From the NCBI GenBank assembly GCA_021647905.1, contig JAKITW010000016.1, positions 1-40,771 of the forward strand: a DNA stretch of 40,771 nucleotides. The letters are read 5' to 3'. The notes below the pieces were generated by a model. It saw only the letters and a program-made list of their open reading frames with translations, was not told the DNA's origin and made no database searches. Shown here piece by piece: positions 14,492 through 33,616 of the stretch; positions within the stretch are counted from its first letter, which is position 1; every line of letters begins with the position of its first letter. Source of the DNA: Desulfobacterales bacterium. GTDB lineage: Bacteria > Desulfobacterota > Desulfobulbia > Desulfobulbales > BM004. Position numbers and translations under genes: made by a program.

Positions 14492-16489
14492 ATGAGTCTG
14501 CACGGAAAACTGATCGAATATCTTGCCGAGGGCCGGATTCTCTGCGCCCTGGTCCATGAAGATTCCGGAAAACGGTTACGGATCTTCAGCCAGAACGGCA
14601 GGGAACTCAATCTGCCCCACTCCCGGGTGATCCATCACTCCCGGACATCCTATCCCCTGACCCTCTCCCGGGAAGAGGAGATCGCGCTGCTCAAGGATGT
14701 TGCCGCCACCCGGCAGGCCCTGGCCGCGACCGTTGATCTGAAAGAGCTGTGGGAACTTGTTGTTGACGAGCCCACCAATGTCTTTACCGCCTCCTTCCTG
14801 GCCGGGCTCTCCTTTGGCCATGATCCCGACGACGACCATGGGGCCGCGGTTGTTCGCGGTGTCCTTGGCGACAAACTCTTTTTCAAATATAAACAGGGCA
14901 ATATCATCGCCCATCCCCCCGGGGTGGTGGAACAACTGCGCCAGCGCCGGGAAAAGGAAAAAGAGCAGGAAACCCTGCTGATTGACGGGGCACGGGAGCT
15001 GAAGCGGATATGGGCCGGCGACAGCCCCGGGGAATGGCCCGGGCAAAAAAAATACCTTGACCTGGTGCGGGACTATTATCTGCACGGTTCCGAGGTCCCG
15101 GAACACGCGCTGGCCCGGAATCTTTTAAAAAAAGCAGGCCTCACCGGGCCCCACGACGCCTTCCATCTGCTGGTCAAGGCCGATGTCTGGGACCAGGACG
15201 AAAATATCCCCCTGCTCCGTCAGGGACTTGAGGTGGACTTTGAGGCAGCGGCATTGGACCAGGCCGCGGCCATGGTCCCGCCCCCGGTCGAGGAGCTTCT
15301 TGCCGAGGGGCGCCAGGATCTCCGCGACCTGGAGCTGCTCACCGTTGACGGACCCGCCACCCGGGATTTTGACGATGCGCTCCACCTTGAAAAAAGGGGT
15401 AACGACTACCTGGTCGGCATCCATATCACCGACGTGGCCGCCCTGGTCAGGCCGGGGACCCCCCTTTTCGAGGCGGCCCGGACCCGGGTAACCTCGCTCT
15501 ACTTTCCCGACCGCCAGATCCCGATGCTGCCGTCCGGACTTTCGGAAGACCTCTGCAGCCTGCGGGCCGGCCAACCCCGCGCGGCGATGAGTTTCATGGT
15601 CCGGATCTCCGCAACCGGCGAAATCCTGGATTTCGATGTGAAGCCCAGCGTGGTAACAGTGAAACGACAGTTGCACTATGCTGAGGCCGACCGCCTGGTA
15701 GAGACGGATGAGACCCTGGCCGGGCTCCACCGGCTCGCCCGACAACTGCGGCGGCAACGACTGGAGGCCGGGGCCCTGCTTCTGCCCTTTCCGGACGTCA
15801 ACATCCGGATCACACCTGACAAGGAGATCGAGATCACCCTGGCCGAAGTCGATACCCCGGGCAGGATGCTGGTGGCCGAGTTCATGATCCTGGCCAACAC
15901 CCTGGGGGCCCAGTATATCGCCGAACGGGAGGCCCCGGGACTTTTCCGGTCACAGCCCCGGCCCCGCCAGCGGTTGGTCCAAGGGGAGGACAAGGACCTT
16001 TTCCTCAACACCCGGCAGCGGAAAAAACTCGCGCCAGGTTCCCTGTCAACCGTGCCCAGGGCGCACAGCGGTCTCGGGGTATCGCAATACACCACCCTCA
16101 CCTCTCCCATCCGCCGCCTGTTGGATCTGGTCATGCAGATTCAACTTCAACACCTGGCCATGGGCAAGGGGGTCTTCTTCTCCAAAAGCGAGATAAAGGA
16201 GTTCGTCCACATCATCCTCAACACCCAGACCAGGGTAAACGGGGTAAAGTTTCTCCGCCACCGCTATTGGCTGCTCAAGCACCTCGAATCACGCACAGGC
16301 GAGGCGTTCCCAGCCATCATCATTGACAAGGGACAGCGCCGCGCCCATATCCTGGTAAAGGATTTTCTCCTTGACGCGGATCTGCCCAATTCCCAGGTCG
16401 CCGCCTTTGCAGCCGGGGAAACCATCATGGTCCGGATCACCAAGGCCGATGCCCTGGCCAATGTTCTTGTACTGGAACCCACGCACTAA
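14492..16489 (+). CDS. RNase II-family 3'-5' exoribonuclease
   Basis: 665 residues. The RNB catalytic domain begins near residue 285 with DGPATRDFDDALH, which carries the metal-binding aspartates of RNase II/R enzymes. LRAGQPRAAMSFMVRI, AEFMILANTLGAQY and YTTLTSPIRRLLDLVMQ are further RNB motifs. The N-terminal 280 residues are helical and charged, and I do not recognise a cold-shock domain with certainty. A short C-terminal region (about 600-665) may be a reduced S1-like fold. I take the ATG at 14492 (MSLHGKLIEYL), although no clear ribosome-binding site is visible. The family degrades mRNA from the 3' end. I cannot tell rnb from rnr by eye. The 96-bp repeat begins on the last base of its stop codon. 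Confidence 0.88.
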   Translation: MSLHGKLIEYLAEGRILCALVHEDSGKRLRIFSQNGRELNLPHSRVIHHSRTSYPLTLSREEEIALLKDVAATRQALAATVDLKELWELVVDEPTNVFTASFLAGLSFGHDPDDDHGAAVVRGVLGDKLFFKYKQGNIIAHPPGVVEQLRQRREKEKEQETLLIDGARELKRIWAGDSPGEWPGQKKYLDLVRDYYLHGSEVPEHALARNLLKKAGLTGPHDAFHLLVKADVWDQDENIPLLRQGLEVDFEAAALDQAAAMVPPPVEELLAEGRQDLRDLELLTVDGPATRDFDDALHLEKRGNDYLVGIHITDVAALVRPGTPLFEAARTRVTSLYFPDRQIPMLPSGLSEDLCSLRAGQPRAAMSFMVRISATGEILDFDVKPSVVTVKRQLHYAEADRLVETDETLAGLHRLARQLRRQRLEAGALLLPFPDVNIRITPDKEIEITLAEVDTPGRMLVAEFMILANTLGAQYIAEREAPGLFRSQPRPRQRLVQGEDKDLFLNTRQRKKLAPGSLSTVPRAHSGLGVSQYTTLTSPIRRLLDLVMQIQLQHLAMGKGVFFSKSEIKEFVHIILNTQTRVNGVKFLRHRYWLLKHLESRTGEAFPAIIIDKGQRRAHILVKDFLLDADLPNSQVAAFAAGETIMVRITKADALANVLVLEPTH

Positions 16490-16584
16490 CCAGCATGGCT
16501 GGACCATGATTTTGGGTCCGCAGCCACAACAAACTATGAAAATATCCCCGGACAGCGAGTTTCGTCCGGCACGACTTTCATATA
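16489..16584 (+). repeat. 96-bp repeat, unit 1
   Basis: It starts with ACCAGCATGGCTGGACCA, whose CCAGC-ATG-GCTGG core is a perfect dyad, and ends with ACTTTCATATA. A second stem, CCGGAC/GTCCGG, lies in its right half, and GGACC/GGTCC arms lie in its left half. The first A is the last base of the RNase gene stop codon. It is identical to unit 2. Confidence 0.93.
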
Positions 16585-16680
16585 ACCAGCATGGCTGGAC
16601 CATGATTTTGGGTCCGCAGCCACAACAAACTATGAAAATATCCCCGGACAGCGAGTTTCGTCCGGCACGACTTTCATATA
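16585..16680 (+). repeat. 96-bp repeat, unit 2
   Basis: A perfect tandem copy of unit 1 with a period of 96 bases. Identity without a single difference suggests a recent duplication or gene conversion. Confidence 0.93.
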
Positions 16681-16736
16681 ACCCAGCATGGCTGGACCAT
16701 AACTTCTGGGCCGCGGCCACAATCAAACAATAAAAG
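16681..16736 (+). repeat. 96-bp repeat, divergent partial unit 3
   Basis: It begins ACCCAGCATGGCTGGACCAT, with one extra C, and stays alignable for about 50 bases before diverging. The right half with the CCGGAC/GTCCGG stem is absent. Confidence 0.75.
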
Positions 16737-18045: not shown

Positions 18046-18981
18046 ATGCCCGTGAAACAGGCCCTGCACCCTGCCGAAATCCATCGTCCCGTTCTGCCGG
18101 AAGAGATAATCCGCTTCCTGGCCCCCCGGGACAAGGGGGTATATGTGGACGCCACCCTGGGACTTGGCGGACATACCGAACGGATCCTGGCCGGGTCGGC
18201 GCCCGCCGGCCGGGTGATCGCCTTTGACTGGGACCTCCGGGCGATTAATCTGGCCAGGGAGCGATTGGCGCCTTTCAGGGACCGGCTGACCTTTGTTCAT
18301 CGCAGTTATGCTGAAATCGAACCGGGCCTGGCCGAGGCCGGAGTGACCAGGGTTGACGGGATACTGCTCGACCTGGGTCTCTCATCCCTGCAGCTCGACT
18401 CCAGTGCCGAGGAGGTGGGCCGCGGTTTCAGCTTCCAGCGAGGAGAACCCCTCGATATGCGGATGGACCAGCGCACCACCCGGACCGCGGCCGAGTTGAT
18501 CAACAACGCAACCGAGCAGGAACTGGCGGATATCTTTTACTACTACGGCGAGGAGAAACAGGCCCGGCGGATTGCGGCCCATCTTGTCAAAGCGAGAAAG
18601 AAAAACCGGTTCGAAACCACGGACCAACTGGCGGAACTGGTGGCCCGGGCAATACCCAGACGTTTTCATCCCCACAGGATCCATGTTGCCACCCGGGTCT
18701 TCCAGGCCGTCAGGATCGCGGTCAACCAGGAGCTGGAGAACCTTGCCACCCTGTTGAAAAAAGCGCCGGCCCTGCTCAACCCGGGGGCCAGACTATGCAT
18801 CATCTCGTTTCACTCCCTGGAGGACCGCCTGGTAAAATGGGGGTTCCGCAACGACCCCTGCTGGGAGATCCTCACCCGGAAGCCGGTGCTTCCGGGCCGG
18901 GATGAGGCCCGGGACAATCCCCGCTCCAGGAGCGCCAAGCTGCGGGTCGCGGCGCTGCGACCAAGGAAGGAGGGACCATGA
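18046..18981 (+). CDS. rsmH: 16S rRNA (cytosine-1402-N4) methyltransferase
   Basis: 311 residues. RsmH methylates N4 of C1402 in 16S rRNA with S-adenosylmethionine. Motif I is DATLGLGGHTE (35-45); HRPVLPEEI is the N-terminal signature; DGILLDLGLSSLQLD and IISFHSLEDRLVK are conserved. The 97-base spacer after mraZ holds a GAAAAAAG/CTTTTTTC dyad (18002-18018). The ATG is preceded by AAAGGG, like that of mraZ. Its stop overlaps the ftsL start (ATGA). Confidence 0.97.
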   Translation: MPVKQALHPAEIHRPVLPEEIIRFLAPRDKGVYVDATLGLGGHTERILAGSAPAGRVIAFDWDLRAINLARERLAPFRDRLTFVHRSYAEIEPGLAEAGVTRVDGILLDLGLSSLQLDSSAEEVGRGFSFQRGEPLDMRMDQRTTRTAAELINNATEQELADIFYYYGEEKQARRIAAHLVKARKKNRFETTDQLAELVARAIPRRFHPHRIHVATRVFQAVRIAVNQELENLATLLKKAPALLNPGARLCIISFHSLEDRLVKWGFRNDPCWEILTRKPVLPGRDEARDNPRSRSAKLRVAALRPRKEGP

Positions 18982-19340
18982 TCAAGGATTATTCCGACCG
19001 CTGTCCGAACGGTTCCGGCAGGAACGGCCGCCGGCCCGGACAGATTATCGCCCGCCGGTCCCCGGCCGCGGCCGACGGCCGCCTGATGCTCAAGACCATC
19101 GGGGTGCTGGTGGTGCTCACCCTCGGCCTTGGTGTCGGATCAACGGTTTACTACGGGCTGCGGATCCGGAGCGCCCTTGATCAGATTGGCCACCAGGCAG
19201 AACTCAATACAAAACTTGTTACCCGCAACCGGGAACTCATCGCCCACCGGGACCGGCTGTTGACCCGGGAAAACATTGAAAAGGCGGCCGCCGGGCTGGG
19301 CCTCTTTCCGCCATCGCCCGGCCAGCTCCGCCGGCCATGA
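18978..19340 (+). CDS. ftsL: Cell division protein FtsL
   Basis: 120 residues. A basic cytoplasmic tail (about 1-36) is followed by one membrane segment (TIGVLVVLTLGLGVGSTVYYG, about 40-60) and a periplasmic coiled coil ending AAAGLGLFPPSPGQ, typical of FtsL. It overlaps rsmH by four bases and lies nine bases before ftsI, its usual place. FtsL works with FtsQ and FtsB to activate FtsWI in standard divisomes. Here its partner FtsI appears non-catalytic. The sequence is poorly conserved, as is normal for this family, so much of the assignment rests on position and topology. Confidence 0.85.
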   Translation: MIKDYSDRCPNGSGRNGRRPGQIIARRSPAAADGRLMLKTIGVLVVLTLGLGVGSTVYYGLRIRSALDQIGHQAELNTKLVTRNRELIAHRDRLLTRENIEKAAAGLGLFPPSPGQLRRP

Positions 19341-19349
19341 TGCAACGGG

Positions 19350-21242
19350 ATGAAAAAAACAAAACCTGACCCCAGACATCCACGCCAGAAGAGACATAAG
19401 CTACGGGGAGCAGTCGCCGGAACGGCGGCTTTTGTTGTTTTTTTGGCCCTGGCAATTGCCGGTCACGACAAGGGATTTGCCATCCCCTTCACCCTTTTCT
19501 CAAAAAACAATCCCCAGCCGGAAGCAGCCGTGCTTGAACTGCAACTGCCCGAGCAGGAACGGGGTAATATCTATGACCGGAACTACCGGTTGCTGGCCGG
19601 CAGTTACCGGACAACGGCCATCTATGCCCGGCCCCTGGAGATTGTTGACCTGGTCCTGGCAGCGGAAAAAATCGCCCCGCTGTTGGGATTGAGCGAAAAA
19701 GAGCTGCTCATCACCCTGAAGTCGGAGCGGGCCTTTGTCTGGCTCGGCCGCCGGATTTCGCCGGACATGGCAACGCGGATCGCGGCCCTTGACCTGGCCG
19801 GCATCTATCCGGTCGAGGAAATGAACCGCGTCTATCCCCATCGGACCGTGGCAGCCCATACCCTGGGGTTTGTCAGCAAGAACCAGGGGCTGGACGGGGT
19901 CGAGTTCTACTACGACACCCTTCTCCGCGGCGGCCGGCTCAAGGATCTCAAGTTGCCGCTCCGGCTGGAGCCCGCGGATATTGAGACCCTGGCGGACAAG
20001 GGCGGCCACCTGGTCCTTACCCTTGATCTTGAAAGCCAGAAAATACTCGAGGCGCGGTTGGCCAGCCTGATCGAAAAATCCGGGGCCCTAAGCGGCGCCG
20101 GACTGGTAATGGACCCGGAAACCGGGGCCATCCTGGCCATGGCCAGCCTGCCCGGCTTTGATCCCAACCGTTTCTGGGACTTCACCAGCAGACAGCGGCG
20201 CAACCGGACGCTGGAGGCCGCCTTTCCCCTGATTGCCGACAAGGTCAGGCCGGACCGGGACAGGGCCGCGGCCGGCAGGAACGCCCAGACCACGGCCACA
20301 AGACCGCTGTTACTCCTCCCGGCCGGGAAAAAAACAAGGCTCCGGCCGGGCCGGTCCCTCAGCCTGGAGATTGATAATCCCCTGTTTGAAATGGACCGCT
20401 ACTTTATCACCGCTCCTGTTTTCAGGGTAGACCTGCCCAGGGGCGCGGGCCTTTCCTCCGCCCCATCTCCTCCAACAGCCAGCAGCCGGCCCCTTGACCT
20501 CTCGCCGACAACGGCAAGTCCGTTGGAGCTGCTGAGCGCTTTTGTCTCCCTGGTCAACCAGGGGCAGGGGGTCACCCCCCACCTGCTGTCCGGAATCCTC
20601 GCGCCTGAAAGCAAACGGGTGCTGACCGCCCTCCCCCCCGGCCGGGCCGTTTCCCTGCTCGATCCGGCAACCAGGGAGAGGCTCTGGCAGGAAATGGCGG
20701 TCATCGGCACCCCGGGGCCTGATAATTCGCTCCTGTTCGAGGAACTTGATTCCAACCCCTCGGCCGGGCTGGCCCACGGCCTCCTCCTGGGGATCGCGCC
20801 ACAACAGAAACCCGAGCTGGCCCTGTTGCTTCTGGTGAACTTCGCCCGAGCCGACAAGACCTCCGGCGATTCGCTCAGATCATTGCTGGACCAGGCCGGC
20901 CGCGGGATCGTTCCCCGGCTGCTCAGCCGGGCCCGGGTCGCCCGGCCGGAACTGCCCCCTGATTTCTGGCGCCGGGATCAGCAACCGGTTCTTGATCTGG
21001 CCGGCCGGGCCGGGCGACCGGAACAGGAAGAACCAGGCCCGGGACCGGAAAAACAGCAGTTCACCATGCCGCTGGTAAACGGCAAGAGCCTGCGTTGCGG
21101 GCTGCAGGCCATCCAGGATATCGGGGCCCGGGTAAAGGTCATCGGCTCCGGACTGATCGTGGCCCAGCATCCCCGGGCCGGCGCCCTGATCAGCAAGGGA
21201 GAACTCTGTATCCTGAAACTCGAGGCCCGGGCAAGGGACTGA
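19350..21242 (+). CDS. ftsI: FtsI/PBP3-like protein lacking transpeptidase motifs, with PASTA domain
   Basis: 630 residues. Membrane anchor at about 20-38; pedestal signature RGNIYDRNYRLLA (71-83); HTLGFVSKNQGLDGVEFYYD (170-189); the start of the transpeptidase domain is recognisable in GLVMDPETGAILAMASLPGFDPNRFW (two parts, 251-276). The nucleophile segment, normally EPGSTFK after an NR-rich stretch, reads TLEAAFPLIADK (287-298) with no SxxK. Near the expected SxN position there is SLEIDN (338-343), not SxN. LELLSAFVSLVNQGQGVTPH (392-411) matches the family, but the KTG position reads LDSNPSAG (466-473). A PASTA-like domain follows at about 571-625. The frame is open throughout and the other frames do not restore the motifs. 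I infer a non-catalytic scaffold. Confidence 0.85.
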   Translation: MKKTKPDPRHPRQKRHKLRGAVAGTAAFVVFLALAIAGHDKGFAIPFTLFSKNNPQPEAAVLELQLPEQERGNIYDRNYRLLAGSYRTTAIYARPLEIVDLVLAAEKIAPLLGLSEKELLITLKSERAFVWLGRRISPDMATRIAALDLAGIYPVEEMNRVYPHRTVAAHTLGFVSKNQGLDGVEFYYDTLLRGGRLKDLKLPLRLEPADIETLADKGGHLVLTLDLESQKILEARLASLIEKSGALSGAGLVMDPETGAILAMASLPGFDPNRFWDFTSRQRRNRTLEAAFPLIADKVRPDRDRAAAGRNAQTTATRPLLLLPAGKKTRLRPGRSLSLEIDNPLFEMDRYFITAPVFRVDLPRGAGLSSAPSPPTASSRPLDLSPTTASPLELLSAFVSLVNQGQGVTPHLLSGILAPESKRVLTALPPGRAVSLLDPATRERLWQEMAVIGTPGPDNSLLFEELDSNPSAGLAHGLLLGIAPQQKPELALLLLVNFARADKTSGDSLRSLLDQAGRGIVPRLLSRARVARPELPPDFWRRDQQPVLDLAGRAGRPEQEEPGPGPEKQQFTMPLVNGKSLRCGLQAIQDIGARVKVIGSGLIVAQHPRAGALISKGELCILKLEARARD

Positions 21243-21247
21243 AACCA

Positions 21248-24200
21248 ATGGCCGCGACGATCAGCAAAAATCTGGGCCAGCTGCTGCGGGATCTGCGTCC
21301 GGATCTGGACCGGGAACAGCAGAAGATCGTTGTCACCGGGATCAGCGCGGATTCACGCGCTGTCGGGCCGGGCGATCTGTTTATCGCAACGGCCGGACAG
21401 ACCGTGGACAGCCACGACTATATCAGCGCTGCCATTGACCAGGGCTGCGCGGCAGTGGTGGTTGAAGCCGGCCGCCCTGTTCCGGAGCCGCTGGCCCGGA
21501 AGGGACCGCCCCTGGTAGAGGTTGCCGACAGCCGCGGCGCGGTTGCGCGGATCGCGGCCGCCTTTTACGGCCATCCGGCCCATGGAATGCGGATGATCGG
21601 GATCACCGGCACCAACGGCAAGACCACGGTCACCTACCTGGCTGAATCGATTATCCGGGCCAGGGGCGGCAGACCCGGGGTAATCGGCACCATCAACTAC
21701 CGCTATGACGACCGGGCCGGCAAGCAGATGCTGGTGCCGGCCCCGCTCACCACCCCGGAGCCGGTGTTCCTCCAGAAGCTGCTCCACCAGATGGCCGCGG
21801 CCGGAGTGACCCATCTGATCATGGAGACATCTTCCCATGGCCTGGCCCAGGGCAGGTTGGCTGGAATCTTTTTTGATATCGCGGTATTTACCAACCTGAG
21901 CCGCGACCACCTTGATTTTCACCGGGATATGGACGATTATTTTGCCAGCAAAAAACGACTGTTCCAGGAACAGCTGAAACCAAAAGGACGGGCGGTGATT
22001 GTCCAAGAAAAGGCCGCGACCTTGCCGGCCGAGGCCTGGGGCCGGAGGCTGGCCGCCGAACTCCCCGGCCGGCAACTGCTCACCTGCGGCCAGGACCCGG
22101 ACAATCTTATCCATCCCTTGCGCTTTGCCTGCGACCTCTCGGGAATCCGGGCCGAACTGGCCACCCCGCGCGGCCGGATCAAGATCCACTCCGCCCTGGT
22201 CGGAGAGTTCAATCTCAACAACATCCTGGCGGCAACGGGAATCGGCCTGGCCCTGGATATTGTTCCGGAAACCATTGCCCGGGGCCTTGATCAGGCCCGG
22301 ACCATACCCGGCCGGCTGGAACGGATCTACCCGGATCATCCCCTGAAAAGGGCGCCCACCGTGCTGGTCGACTTTGCCCATACCCCGGATGCGCTGGACA
22401 ACGTTCTCTCCGCCCTGAAACAACTCAAGCCGGAGCGGTTGTTCTGCGTCTTCGGCTGCGGCGGCGACCGGGACCCGGGCAAGCGGGAGTTGATGGGTGA
22501 AACAGCCGGTCTTCTTGCCGACGTGGTTATCGCCACCTCGGACAATCCGCGCTCCGAGGAACCGGCCGCAATCCTTGATGCGGTGCTCGCCGGGATCAAA
22601 CGTACCGGCAGAGCCCGGCTGCAGCCAGATACGCTCGACCTTCCAGGGGCCAGGGGGTATATGGTGATCGTCTCCCGCCGGCAGGCGATCCGTGTCGCCG
22701 TCTCCCATGCCGGACCGAACGACCTGGTCCTGGTCAGCGGCAAGGGCCATGAGACCTGCCAACTCCGCGGCAAGACCAGAAAATTCTTCAGCGACCGGAT
22801 CGAGGCGGAGAAACAGCTGGCCTGTCTGTACGGCCCCGGCCCGGCCTGGTCCCTTGAACAGGTGACCGCGGCCACCCGCGGCAGGGTCATGGGTAAAGAA
22901 AATCTGCACACCGACCGCTTTTCCGGGGTATCCACCGATACCCGCACCCTGCAACCCGGCAATCTGTTCGTGGGTCTGAACGGCCCTAATTTCATTGGCC
23001 GCGACTTTGCCGATACCGCGGTACAAAAGGGCGCCGCCGCCCTGCTCCTTGATCAACCGCCGGCCGGGCCGGCTGCCGCGTCCTCCTGGTCCGAGGTGCC
23101 GGTGATCCTGGTGGACGACACCCTGGAGGCCCTGGGCAACCTGGCCGCGGCCCACCGGGCCCGGCTCGGCAATTTAAAGGTCCTGGCCATCACCGGCAGT
23201 TCCGGCAAGACCACGGTCAAGGAGATGACCGCGGCCATCCTGGCCAGAACCCTGCCCACCCTGAAGAGCGAGGGTAACTTCAACAACCTGATCGGCCTGC
23301 CGCTCACCCTGCTCCAGGCCACGGCCGACCACCGGATCGCGGTGCTGGAGATGGGCATGAACCGGCCCGGCGAACTGGCCCGGCTGGCGGAGATCGCCGC
23401 ACCGGACTTAAGCTGCATCACCAATATCCAGGAGGCCCATCTTGCCGGGCTCGGCAGCATCAACGGGGTGGCCCGGGCCAAGGGCGAGCTTTTCGCGGGC
23501 AGTAAAAGCTCCGCCATCCTGGCGGTCAATCTTGACGACCAGCGGGTACGGAAACTGGCCCGGCCGCAGAAACAAAAAAAAATCACCTATGCGGCCACCC
23601 CGGCCGGCCGCAGATACAAACCACTGATCAGGGCCACCCGGATCAGCAACCTGGGCCAGGCCGGCACCGCCTTTACCCTGCATATCAGCGGCAAGCACCG
23701 CCGGGTCCGGCTGTCAAGCCCGGGCCGCCACAATGTCGGCAATGCGCTCGCCGCGGCAGCCCTGGCCCATGGCGCCGGAACATCCCTGCCGTCAATCGTT
23801 GCCGGACTGGAGAGCTACACCCCCCTTGCCAAGCGGGCCGAGATCGTCACCCTGCCGAACGGGATCAAGATAATCAACGACACCTACAACGCCAACCCCG
23901 CCTCCATGAACGCGGCCCTGCGCACCCTGCGGGACATCCGCCAACAGGGAAAAACCGTGGCCGTGCTCGGTGAGATGCTGGAACTGGGCAGATACAGTGA
24001 TGACGCCCACCGGACCCTCGGCACGGCCGCGGCAGAGCTGCCCTGCGACTTTGTCGCCGCAATCGGCGAACATGCCGGAATCCTGGTCAAAGCGGCCCGG
24101 AGCAAGGGAATGGCCGCGGACCAGGCCCGAAGTTTCAGCGATAAACAAAAATTATGCGCCTGGCTGGCCGGACTGATTACTGCCGGCAGGCTGACCAGCA

Positions 24201-24304
24201 ACGACTGGATCTTGATCAAGGGCTCCCGCGGCATGCGGATGGAAACCGTTATCAAAGAACTGCAGCAGTGTGGCTTGACCACACGGCAAAGGACCCTGAA
24301 CTGA
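21248..24304 (+). CDS. murEF: MurE-MurF fusion (UDP-MurNAc-tripeptide synthetase / D-Ala-D-Ala ligase)
   Basis: 1018 residues, two complete Mur ligases in one frame. MurE part (about 1-525): GTNGKTT at 121-127, METSSHGL, and DNPR at 432-435, the motif for meso-diaminopimelate, plus GKGHETCQL. MurF part (about 533-1018): GSSGKTT at 650-656, [26 protein letters not shown] and GSRGMRME. The linker is only about eight residues. The protein would add m-DAP to UDP-MurNAc-L-Ala-D-Glu and then D-Ala-D-Ala in the cytoplasm. It starts five bases after ftsI with AAGGGA upstream, and its stop overlaps the mraY start by one base. Confidence 0.95.
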
Positions 24305-26808: not shown

Positions 26809-26816
26809 GCAACCAT

Positions 26817-30264: not shown

Positions 30265-30273
30265 GGAGCATTG

Positions 30274-31116
30274 ATGCGCAGTATCACCTGTGCCGACAAA
30301 ATGCAGCACCTGCGACGGAACCGGAACCGGTCCCAACGCTGGTTTCCGGTTGTGAACGGCCGCACCCTGGCCAAGGGCGCCGGGATGGCCGGGCTGGTCA
30401 TCCTGCTCTGGCTGGGCGCAAACCTTGCCCATCAATGGATGTGCAGCTGGGATTTCTTCCGGATCACCACCATTGAGGTCAACGGCTGCAACAGAACAAC
30501 CGAGCAGGAAATCAAGGCCAAAAGCGGGGTGGATGTCCACTCCAACCTGATGGCCCTGAAACCGGCGCTGGTGGAAGAGGCCCTGGCCCAGCATCCCTGG
30601 ATCGACCAGGTCAAGATCAGCCGCGACTGGCCGAACCGGCTGCTGATCACGATCAAGGAAAAAGAGGTGGCCGCGATTATCAACCGCCGGGACGGACTCT
30701 TTTATATCGATCGCCGGGGCCGGGCCTTCTGGCCGGCTGCCGCTGCCAATGATCTCGATTTCCCGGTAATGACCGGCAATTTCAACGCACCCGGCCCGAT
30801 CCCGGCGACCCGGCTCAAGCAAGCGCTCCATTTTCTGGAACTGGCGCGCCGGAGCAGCAACTCTTTTTTGCAGGAGCAGAACATCTCCGAGATACACCTG
30901 AGCGAACAGAACGAGCTGGTCCTCTTCCTCCTGGGCCGGCCGTTTCCCATCTACCTGGGCCACGGCGGGATCAAGCAAGAATATTCCCGGCTGCTCTCGC
31001 TGTTGAAACAACTGTACCGGAGCAAGGAGTTCGCCTCCACCGCCTTCATCGACATGGGCTATATGCCGGACAAGGCGCTGGTGGGCAAGAACAATGGTAA
31101 CAAAAAACAGGGCTGA
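30274..31116 (+). CDS. ftsQ: Cell division protein FtsQ
   Basis: 280 residues. A basic cytoplasmic tail, one membrane segment (GMAGLVILLWLGANLAH, about 37-53), a POTRA domain (ITTIEVNGCNRTTEQEI to WPNRLLITIKEKE) and a beta domain follow in the usual order. AAGGAG stands five bases before the ATG at 30274; a TTG directly upstream of it is less well spaced. FtsQ is the periplasmic hub that with FtsL and FtsB recruits FtsW and FtsI. Its presence along with FtsL shows that the recruitment layer is kept although the catalytic pair is not seen here. Confidence 0.95.
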   Translation: MRSITCADKMQHLRRNRNRSQRWFPVVNGRTLAKGAGMAGLVILLWLGANLAHQWMCSWDFFRITTIEVNGCNRTTEQEIKAKSGVDVHSNLMALKPALVEEALAQHPWIDQVKISRDWPNRLLITIKEKEVAAIINRRDGLFYIDRRGRAFWPAAAANDLDFPVMTGNFNAPGPIPATRLKQALHFLELARRSSNSFLQEQNISEIHLSEQNELVLFLLGRPFPIYLGHGGIKQEYSRLLSLLKQLYRSKEFASTAFIDMGYMPDKALVGKNNGNKKQG

Positions 31117-31117
31117 T

Positions 31118-32350
31118 ATGGAGAAGGAACAGAGAGGAGAACTGATAGTCGGACTGGATATCGGCACCACCAAGATATGTACGGTGATCGGCGAGGTCTT
31201 TCCCGAACGGCTGGACATCCTCGGGATCGGCACCCACCCCTCGGCAGGAATGAAAAAGGGAATGGTGGTCAATATCGAAAGCACGGTGGATTCCATCCGC
31301 CGGGCGGTCGGCCAGGCCGAGGAGATGGCCGGCTGCGAGATCAACGCGGTCAGCATCGGCATTGCCGGCAGCCATATCAAGGGCTTTGCCAGCCCGGGAA
31401 TTGTCGGGATCAAGGGACGGCAGATCACCCAGGAGGATATCAACCGGGTGATCGACGCGGCCCGGGCGGTGAACATCTCCCACAACCAGGAGATCATCCA
31501 TGTCCTGCCCCAGGAGTTCATGGTCGACGACCATACCGGGATCCAGGACCCGCTGGGCATGACCGGGGTACGGCTGGTGACCAACGTCCACATCGTCACC
31601 GGCAACGCCACCGCGGTCCACAACCTGGTCATGTGCTGCAACCGGGCCGGCCTGCAGGTCTCGGGCATTGTCCTTGAATCCCTGGCCTCGGCCAGCGCGG
31701 TCCTGAGCCGGGAAGAGATGGACGTCGGGGTGGCGCTCCTTGATATCGGCGGCGGCACCTCGGACCTGGCGATCTTTGCCGACGGCACGATCAAGCATAT
31801 CTTTGAGCTGGGCCTGGGCGGCAACAATCTTACCAACGATCTGTCAGTGGGACTGCGCACCCCGGTCCGGGCGGCGGAGCGGCTCAAGAACCATTACGGC
31901 TCCGCCCTGACCTCGATGATCGACAAGGACGAGATCATCGAGGTGCCCACGGTGGGCGACCGGGCCGCCCGCAAACTGTCGCAGCGGATCATGGGCGAGA
32001 TCCTTGAACCGCGGATCGAGGAGATGTTGTTTCTGATCAACCAGGAGATCCTCGATTCCTCGTTCAAGGACCGGATCACCGCCGGGGTGGTGATCACCGG
32101 CGGCACTGCCAAGCTGGCCAACATCGTTGACCTGGCCGAGCAGATATTCGACCTGCCGGTGCGGATCGGCACCCCCCGGGAGCTGCGGGAGGCGCCTGAG
32201 GACATATACAGCCCGCAGCACGCAACCGGGGTCGGGCTGGTGCGCTACGCCAGCCAGAACGCCTCGGAGCACAGGTTCCGCAGCAAGGAGAAAGGGTCCA
32301 TGGGCCGATTCGCGGCCTGGGTCAAACGCGGTTTCCGCAACACATTATAG
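31118..32350 (+). CDS. ftsA: Cell division protein FtsA
   Basis: 410 residues, an actin-like ATPase that tethers FtsZ to the membrane. Phosphate 1 is LIVGLDIGTTKICTVIGE, phosphate 2 is DIGGGTSDLAIF, and the adenosine motif is VITGGTAKL. The last 17 residues (MGRFAAWVKRGFRNTL) form the expected amphipathic membrane-binding helix. I start at ATG 31118, two bases after the ftsQ stop, with AGGG upstream; an ATG at 31094 overlapping ftsQ is possible and would add eight residues. Confidence 0.96.
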   Translation: MEKEQRGELIVGLDIGTTKICTVIGEVFPERLDILGIGTHPSAGMKKGMVVNIESTVDSIRRAVGQAEEMAGCEINAVSIGIAGSHIKGFASPGIVGIKGRQITQEDINRVIDAARAVNISHNQEIIHVLPQEFMVDDHTGIQDPLGMTGVRLVTNVHIVTGNATAVHNLVMCCNRAGLQVSGIVLESLASASAVLSREEMDVGVALLDIGGGTSDLAIFADGTIKHIFELGLGGNNLTNDLSVGLRTPVRAAERLKNHYGSALTSMIDKDEIIEVPTVGDRAARKLSQRIMGEILEPRIEEMLFLINQEILDSSFKDRITAGVVITGGTAKLANIVDLAEQIFDLPVRIGTPRELREAPEDIYSPQHATGVGLVRYASQNASEHRFRSKEKGSMGRFAAWVKRGFRNTL

Positions 32351-32356
32351 AAAAAC

Positions 32357-32397
32357 GTCCGGTGCGGCCGGAGGGCGCCGGCAGGGCGCGGACTTTT
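32357..32397 (+). terminator. Possible attenuator between ftsA and ftsZ
   Basis: GTCCG (32357-32361) and CGGAC (32389-32393) close a GC-rich region that can fold further, and TTTT follows. It is short for a terminator. It might let ftsZ levels be tuned separately from ftsA, which is inference. Confidence 0.3.
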
Positions 32398-32428
32398 GAT
32401 AACACTCTAGACAAAGGGGGGCAAGAAC

Positions 32429-33616
32429 ATGTCTTTTCGTTTGGCAACCGATCCATTGGCCAGAATCAGGGTCATCGGGGTGGGCGGCGGCGGCGGCAAT
32501 GCCGTCAATACCATGGTGACCAACAAACTCCAGGGAGTGCAGTTCATCGCGGCCAACACCGATATCCAGGCCCTGGAGAACTCAAAGGCCGACGTCTGCC
32601 TGCAGCTGGGCCCGGGGATCACCCGGGGGTTGGGCGCGGGCGCGGACCCGGAAAAGGGCAAGGGCGCGGCCCTGGAAAGCACCGAGGAGATCAAAAAGGT
32701 GCTCAAGGGCGCGGACATGGTCTTTGTCACCGCCGGACTGGGCGGCGGCACCGGCACCGGCGGCGCGCCGGTGGTGGCCAAGATCAGCAAGGAGATGGGC
32801 GTGCTCACCGTGGCCGTGGTCACCAAGCCCTTCTTCTTTGAGGCCCGTTCCCGGATGCAGAAGGCGGAATCGGGCTGGGAAGAGCTGAAAAAACACGTGG
32901 ACACCATCATCACCATTCCCAACGACCGGCTGCTGGCGGTGATGCAGAAGGGCAGCAAGTTGATGGACATGATGAAAAAGGCGGACGACGTCCTGCTCCA
33001 GGCGGTCAAGGGCATCACCGACCTGATCACCCTGCCCGGCCATATCAATGTGGACTTTGCCGATCTGCGCGCGGTGATGCAGCAGGTGGGTCCGGCGATC
33101 ATGGGGGCCGGGGTGGCGGTGGGCGAGGACCGGGCCGTTGAGGCGGCCAAAAAGGCCATTGACAACCCGCTCCTGCAGGACGTGGGAATCGACGGCGCCA
33201 AGGGCGTGTTGATCAACATCTCGGCCAGTGAAGAGAGCCTGACCATGAACGAATTCATGGGTGCGGCCTCACTGGTCCAGGAAAAGGCCCATCTTGACGC
33301 CAATATCATCATCGGCGCCCTGTTCGACGAGTCCCTGGGCGACGAGCTGCGGGTAACCGTGATTGCCACTGGGATCAACTCCGCCGACGAGGCGGCCGCG
33401 GCCAAGCCGCTGATGACCCTGCGCCGCAAACCAAGGGCGGTTGAAGAGGAACCAGCGGAACCCGCGGCCGGAGAAGGCCGGCCGCGGGAGAGATCACGGC
33501 GGAGCATGCTTAATAACCGCGCCGGCAGCGGAACCCGGCGGTCCCTGCCGCTGCCCCATTTCCTTGACGAGGCGGAGTTGGAGACCCCGACCTACCTGCG
33601 CCAGGCCGCTGACTGA
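32429..33616 (+). CDS. ftsZ: Cell division protein FtsZ
   Basis: 395 residues. FtsZ is the tubulin-like GTPase of the division ring. GVGGGGGNAVNTM opens the GTP-binding domain, the tubulin signature is GLGGGTGTGGAPVVA, and the T7-loop is LPGHINVDFADLRAVM with the catalytic Asp. The C-terminal linker is short and charged, and the end ETPTYLRQAAD is the conserved peptide that binds FtsA. PFFFEARSRMQ replaces the usual PFxFEG, a mild oddity. It is the last dcw gene; the 96-bp repeat starts on the last base of its TGA. Confidence 0.98.
   Translation: MSFRLATDPLARIRVIGVGGGGGNAVNTMVTNKLQGVQFIAANTDIQALENSKADVCLQLGPGITRGLGAGADPEKGKGAALESTEEIKKVLKGADMVFVTAGLGGGTGTGGAPVVAKISKEMGVLTVAVVTKPFFFEARSRMQKAESGWEELKKHVDTIITIPNDRLLAVMQKGSKLMDMMKKADDVLLQAVKGITDLITLPGHINVDFADLRAVMQQVGPAIMGAGVAVGEDRAVEAAKKAIDNPLLQDVGIDGAKGVLINISASEESLTMNEFMGAASLVQEKAHLDANIIIGALFDESLGDELRVTVIATGINSADEAAAAKPLMTLRRKPRAVEEEPAEPAAGEGRPRERSRRSMLNNRAGSGTRRSLPLPHFLDEAELETPTYLRQAAD

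Follow-up and report, generated by a model that had tools for sequence, protein, structure and literature searches.

To our knowledge, septal wall synthesis was regarded as requiring FtsW and FtsI in all bacteria until the case of Clostridioides difficile. This species divides with the class A penicillin-binding protein (PBP) PBP1, while its one essential pair of a SEDS protein and a class B PBP (SEDS-bPBP) serves elongation (PMC10693644), and its PBP3 acts in division without catalysis (PMC12539705). In Bacillus subtilis, PBP2B has a structural role in division that is independent of catalysis (PMC5656894). Closer to the DNA considered here, a study of 2021 found ftsW absent from four Desulfobulbaceae, two of them cable bacteria and the other two Desulfobulbus species, counting FtsI as a working member of the divisome and leaving its active site unmentioned (PMC7873302). 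The division genes of those bacteria come from the same order, Desulfobulbales, as the window (the whole stretch of 40,771 nucleotides that we analyzed), and the absence of ftsW is common to both. Our literature search, of partial coverage, found no report of a dead FtsI active site; we therefore provisionally regard the loss described below as new, the absence of FtsW having been published already.

The window holds a complete dcw cluster (mraZ, rsmH, ftsL-like, ftsI, fused murE-murF, mraY, murD, murG, murC, murB, ftsQ, ftsA and ftsZ), in which ftsI occupies the dcw position between rsmH/ftsL and murE. Its open reading frame is intact, with an ATG start, 630 amino acids and zero internal stops. 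Pfam detects PBP_dimer in the 630-aa protein (E 3e-13) and weakly PASTA (PF03793), and the transpeptidase model PF00905 is matched at the first 40 of its 299 positions only. A sequence-only reading of this DNA had proposed that the protein keeps its membrane anchor, RGNIYDR pedestal, transpeptidase start and PASTA domain, and all of these were found again by Pfam and in the structural model. The features of the protein and its surroundings are as follows.

18978..19340, + strand: ftsL-like gene, 120 aa (position and one hydrophobic segment)
19350..21242, + strand: ftsI-derived gene lacking a catalytic site, 630 aa (homology and fold match to FtsI/SpoVD/PBP3)
19389..19469, + strand: N-terminal membrane helix, residues 14-40 (predicted helix)
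19557..19919, + strand: pedestal/dimerisation domain, residues 70-190 (PF03717; pLDDT mostly >85)
19560-19580, + strand: RGNIYDR within the pedestal
20091..20225, + strand: opening strands of the transpeptidase domain, residues 248-292 (PF00905 positions 2-40; structure model)
20199..20243, + strand: SxxK-equivalent stretch RNRTLEAAFPLIADK, residues 284-298, without a Ser/Lys pair (alignment with active orthologues)
20229..20387, + strand: region of the one-time active site and SxN, residues 294-346, predicted to be disordered (pLDDT <50)
20520..20942, + strand: C-terminal portion of the transpeptidase fold, residues 391-531 (model, fold match)
20730-20768, + strand: KTG-equivalent strand LLFEELDSNPSAG, residues 461-473 (alignment with active orthologues)
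21063..21224, + strand: PASTA domain, residues 572-625 (weak PF03793; pLDDT >80; well conserved)
21248..24304, + strand: fused murE-murF gene (one ORF; start by inspection)
26809..26816, + strand: murD/murG gap of 8 bases, the usual place of ftsW, which is absent
30271..31116, + strand: ftsQ (POTRA_1 and FtsQ_DivIB_C)
31094..33616, + strand: ftsA and ftsZ (orthologues in relatives)

The 120-aa ftsL-like protein has no Pfam or NCBIfam match, and an ORF that matches it occupies this position in genome G045, a member of the order. At the murE-murF site, ORFs of similar length (1045, 1091 and 982 aa) are found in G045, G110 and G225, and separate genes in group f26. The usual location of ftsW is between murD and murG.

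The alignment with active orthologues of the same phylum shows what became of the catalytic center. At SxxK, RNRTLEAAFPLIADK of the window protein aligns to RNRAVADSFEPGSTLK of an active orthologue, so that EPGSTLK is replaced by FPLIADK, and the KTG strand reads LLFEELDSNPSAG. Neither SxxK nor KTG is present in register, and SxN is likewise absent in register, in agreement with the earlier claim that all three motifs are missing. The ancestry of these segments is plainer in less diverged relatives, where FEPGSTFKAFLAAAALEE-type sequences stand against PVYPGELALIFQQAAA. A DKTSG stretch from residue 502 was considered as a shifted KTG and rejected, since it is located beyond the final strand of the sheet (490-500). 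A frameshift or sequencing error that hides EPGSTFK, a possibility raised with the original claim, was rejected as well: the motifs occur in neither of the other two forward frames, and 136 further orthologues agree with the window. Judged from its sequence, the window FtsI is almost certainly catalytically dead.

Structural prediction, proposed earlier as a check, yielded an FtsI/PBP3 fold with a disordered active-site region. The AlphaFold2 model, built from 40 sequences (mean pLDDT 77), is confident for the pedestal and the transpeptidase sheet and falls below 50 at residues 294-346 and 367-386, and a second member of the order gave a similar outcome when modelled. The best fold matches are SpoVD and FtsI/PBP3 (Z about 31, residues 56-531); profile matches to FtsI chains span profile positions 16-522, and the match to FtsI and SpoVD structures is full length. 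The window protein is FtsI/PBP3 by descent, given its homology over the pedestal and transpeptidase domains and its position in the dcw cluster. It shares with FtsI/PBP3 and SpoVD the fold, the membrane helix, the pedestal and the dcw position, and with active homologues of its phylum the C-terminal PASTA domain. Unlike FtsI/PBP3 and SpoVD, however, it has no SxxK, SxN or KTG, and its genome has no FtsW partner. The predicted fold fits a loss of catalysis.

This loss extends far beyond the window. A match to the gene is present in all 146 surveyed genomes of the order (52 genera), nearly always at full length. We read 137 distinct orthologues of the order, spread over 48 genera and 13 families and drawn from this survey and an earlier search of relatives; partial matches were left unread in surveyed genera g5, g8, g13, g40 and g52 and in families f2 and f10. 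The alignment with FtsI from other Desulfobulbales, which the sequence-only reading had called for, gave a uniform answer: the catalytic set is missing from every one of the 137. Desulfurivibrio sp. AMeS2 and Desulfogranum japonicum are among the named members of the order that carry the dead form. KTG in register occurs in 0/137; in two sequences the Ser of SxxK is in place but not its Lys, in five the reverse holds, and the two residues never occur together; and four carry S or T plus N in the SxN columns, without SxxK or KTG. This pattern is beyond chance. Outside the order, the residues S, K, S, S, N, K, T and G are all present in each of 22 aligned active-type sequences, and three further active-type orthologues have the motifs by pattern, giving 25 in total from the rest of the phylum. 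The dead FtsI is neither a sequencing error nor a case of local decay.

Two lineages outside the order share the trait. In group f26, which represents its own class, a 643-aa FtsI without the motifs was found in 5/5 genomes examined, with YELGELA in place of the FEPGSTFK of active copies and no KTG. The closed, single-contig genome G225 (2.03 Mb) encodes a 538-aa FtsI of the same kind; there, murG comes after murD, and RodA, present once, adjoins an active PBP2. As far as the motifs tell, the trait is thus wider than first supposed, taking in the whole order as sampled and these two lineages. In a tree of the pedestal columns that includes G225, a branch with support 98/93 sets all sequences of the dead type apart; with pedestal and PASTA columns and without G225, they again fall on one side, weakly (84/36). 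Since dead copies evolve faster and the branch of G225 is long, we regard one catalytic loss in a common ancestor as likely, and no more than that. In other members of the phylum, namely G170, G198, G202 and G221 (L411, L412, L414 and L415), we observed one SEDS gene adjoining an active PBP2, and FtsI gave no strong match; these are possibly further losses of FtsWI.

Could the gene be a slowly decaying relic of little or no function? The old catalytic core is indeed poorly conserved and partly disordered, as such a relic would be, but the gene is found nearly always full length throughout the survey, its pedestal and PASTA domain are conserved, and dN/dS over the whole gene is 0.07-0.28 in comparable close pairs of dead copies, usually lowest in the pedestal. 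These values argue that selection keeps the gene, and together with its presence across the order they uphold the earlier proposal that it is retained and not decayed, for which dN/dS among close relatives had been named as a check. We therefore rejected a pseudogene, and consider a relic extremely improbable, decay being already contradicted by the selection data. Conservation scores for the dead set and active homologues are 0.51 and 0.56 in the pedestal, 0.58 and 0.52 in PASTA, and 0.36 and 0.64 in the old catalytic core; because taxonomic depth is unequal between the two sets, only the differences from domain to domain can be interpreted. Alternatively, the remodelled domain might have gained another enzymatic or ligand-binding activity, as retention of the transpeptidase sheet would allow. 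However, the old active-site region has no new conserved polar set, and most invariant positions fall within the pedestal, PASTA and the beginning of the transpeptidase domain, making this reading very unlikely.

FtsW, on which the sequence-only reading was silent, is missing as well. In the genome that contains the window (a draft, 98% complete), the sole SEDS gene is RodA, adjoining PBP2, and FtsW was not found. A SEDS gene is present in 144 of the 146 genomes of the order, nearly always just one, the extra rows being fragments or a split gene; a second SEDS gene is thus absent near-uniformly across these genomes. Most genomes outside the order have two SEDS genes, one of them a few kb downstream of ftsI. 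A check of 43 genomes for transpeptidases yielded a single strong class B PBP, located beside the SEDS gene, in 42 of them and none in the remaining one. The search for a second class B PBP in the window's own genome, another check suggested at the outset, returned PBP2 only, and a second FtsI or FtsW elsewhere was rejected on this genome and on the survey of the order. In the single-contig genome G021, RodA is seemingly split into two open frames (G021:C1:137697-138757).

With active FtsI and FtsW both missing, the order must make its division wall with another enzyme. The enzymes that carry transpeptidase motifs in the window's genome are PBP2 and two class A PBPs of 653 and about 1109 aa, which, as in the C. 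difficile divisome, combine glycosyltransferase (GT) and transpeptidase (TP) domains (motifs GSAMK/SNN/KTGT and GSAIK/SEN/KTGT). The larger, L003, has large insertions in its transpeptidase part, and G045 and G118 also gave matches to class A-like frames, 1139 and 1148 aa long.

Our explanation runs as follows. The D,D-transpeptidase activity of FtsI would have been lost in an ancestor of Desulfobulbales and related lineages, along with its glycosyltransferase partner FtsW, and the dead protein would have been kept as a non-catalytic component of the division complex. Its pedestal and PASTA domain may have kept their binding to peptidoglycan and to divisome partners (FtsQ, the FtsL-like protein), and it may position or gate another synthase. 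Septal peptidoglycan would then be made by a bifunctional class A PBP, for which the two above are candidates, leaving the single RodA-PBP2 pair for elongation in an arrangement like that of C. difficile. Taken as a whole, this picture of a divisome pseudoenzyme with a class A PBP as the most likely septal synthase seems to us fairly probable. Its parts differ in strength: by the precedents of B. subtilis and C. difficile, FtsI very probably has a non-catalytic divisome role as scaffold or regulator, and a class A PBP is somewhat probable as the main septal synthase, by analogy and from two draft genomes without the elongation cluster.

The first of these drafts, G045 (L345, L366, L397; 99% complete), has class A PBPs, whereas MreB, MreC, PBP2 and RodA are unmatched, a combination that favors class A PBPs as septal synthase. 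Its contigs with the genes that flank the elongation cluster in relatives continue without the cluster, arguing for a real absence, although gene order is not conserved there. The second, G110 (L343, L344; 2.0 Mb, 90% complete), has no PF00905 transpeptidase, SEDS or MreC match but does have ftsA, ftsZ and mur genes along with the dead FtsI; the absence of any PF00905 match is not explained by a class A PBP synthase, and the genome is possibly reduced or incomplete. An assembly gap behind the missing cluster is possible in both, and we estimate that about five of 146 such genomes would lack any one locus through incompleteness. These drafts bear also on a competing proposal, in which the dead FtsI is a scaffold and RodA-PBP2, the sole SEDS-bPBP pair, builds both septal and lateral peptidoglycan. 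It draws on SEDS proteins being limited to RodA and active class B PBPs to PBP2, and on septal synthesis being normally the work of SEDS-bPBP pairs. Against it stand G045 and G110, where SEDS and PBP2 are unmatched (gaps being possible), and C. difficile, whose single essential pair serves elongation while a class A PBP divides the cell (PMC10693644). We consider it rather unlikely.

The class A PBP reading makes the order resemble C. difficile in having one SEDS-bPBP pair, no functional FtsW/FtsI pair and a class B PBP whose role in division is independent of catalysis. The two differ in that the dcw synthases of C. difficile have sporulation roles and the non-catalytic role there was seen in mutants, whereas the present order is diderm and non-sporulating and its dcw FtsI is dead by nature. 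The B. subtilis PBP2B S309A variant likewise shows a catalytically dead class B PBP of the divisome supporting division, but it is a laboratory mutant, dependent on PBP3, and FtsW is present. It is tempting to speculate further that the order and at least two outside lineages divide without FtsW or active FtsI, the dead FtsI being indispensable as scaffold or gate of a class A PBP, and that this FtsWI-independent divisome of diderm bacteria had a single origin, predating the order and separate from the case of C. difficile; the chances of this fuller version appear evenly balanced.

A broad diderm group, kin of cable bacteria and Desulfobulbus, lacks FtsW and has an FtsI stripped of its chemistry, and nature would therefore have separated the structural and catalytic jobs of FtsI. 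The question of structure versus catalysis can now be put to the test in culturable members, Desulfobulbus and Desulfurivibrio among them, where FtsI-directed beta-lactams are predicted not to block division via FtsI. As a minor observation on the window itself, a 96-bp tandem array (2.6 copies, 94% matches) at 16487-16735 begins where an exoribonuclease-like ORF ends (stop 16489).
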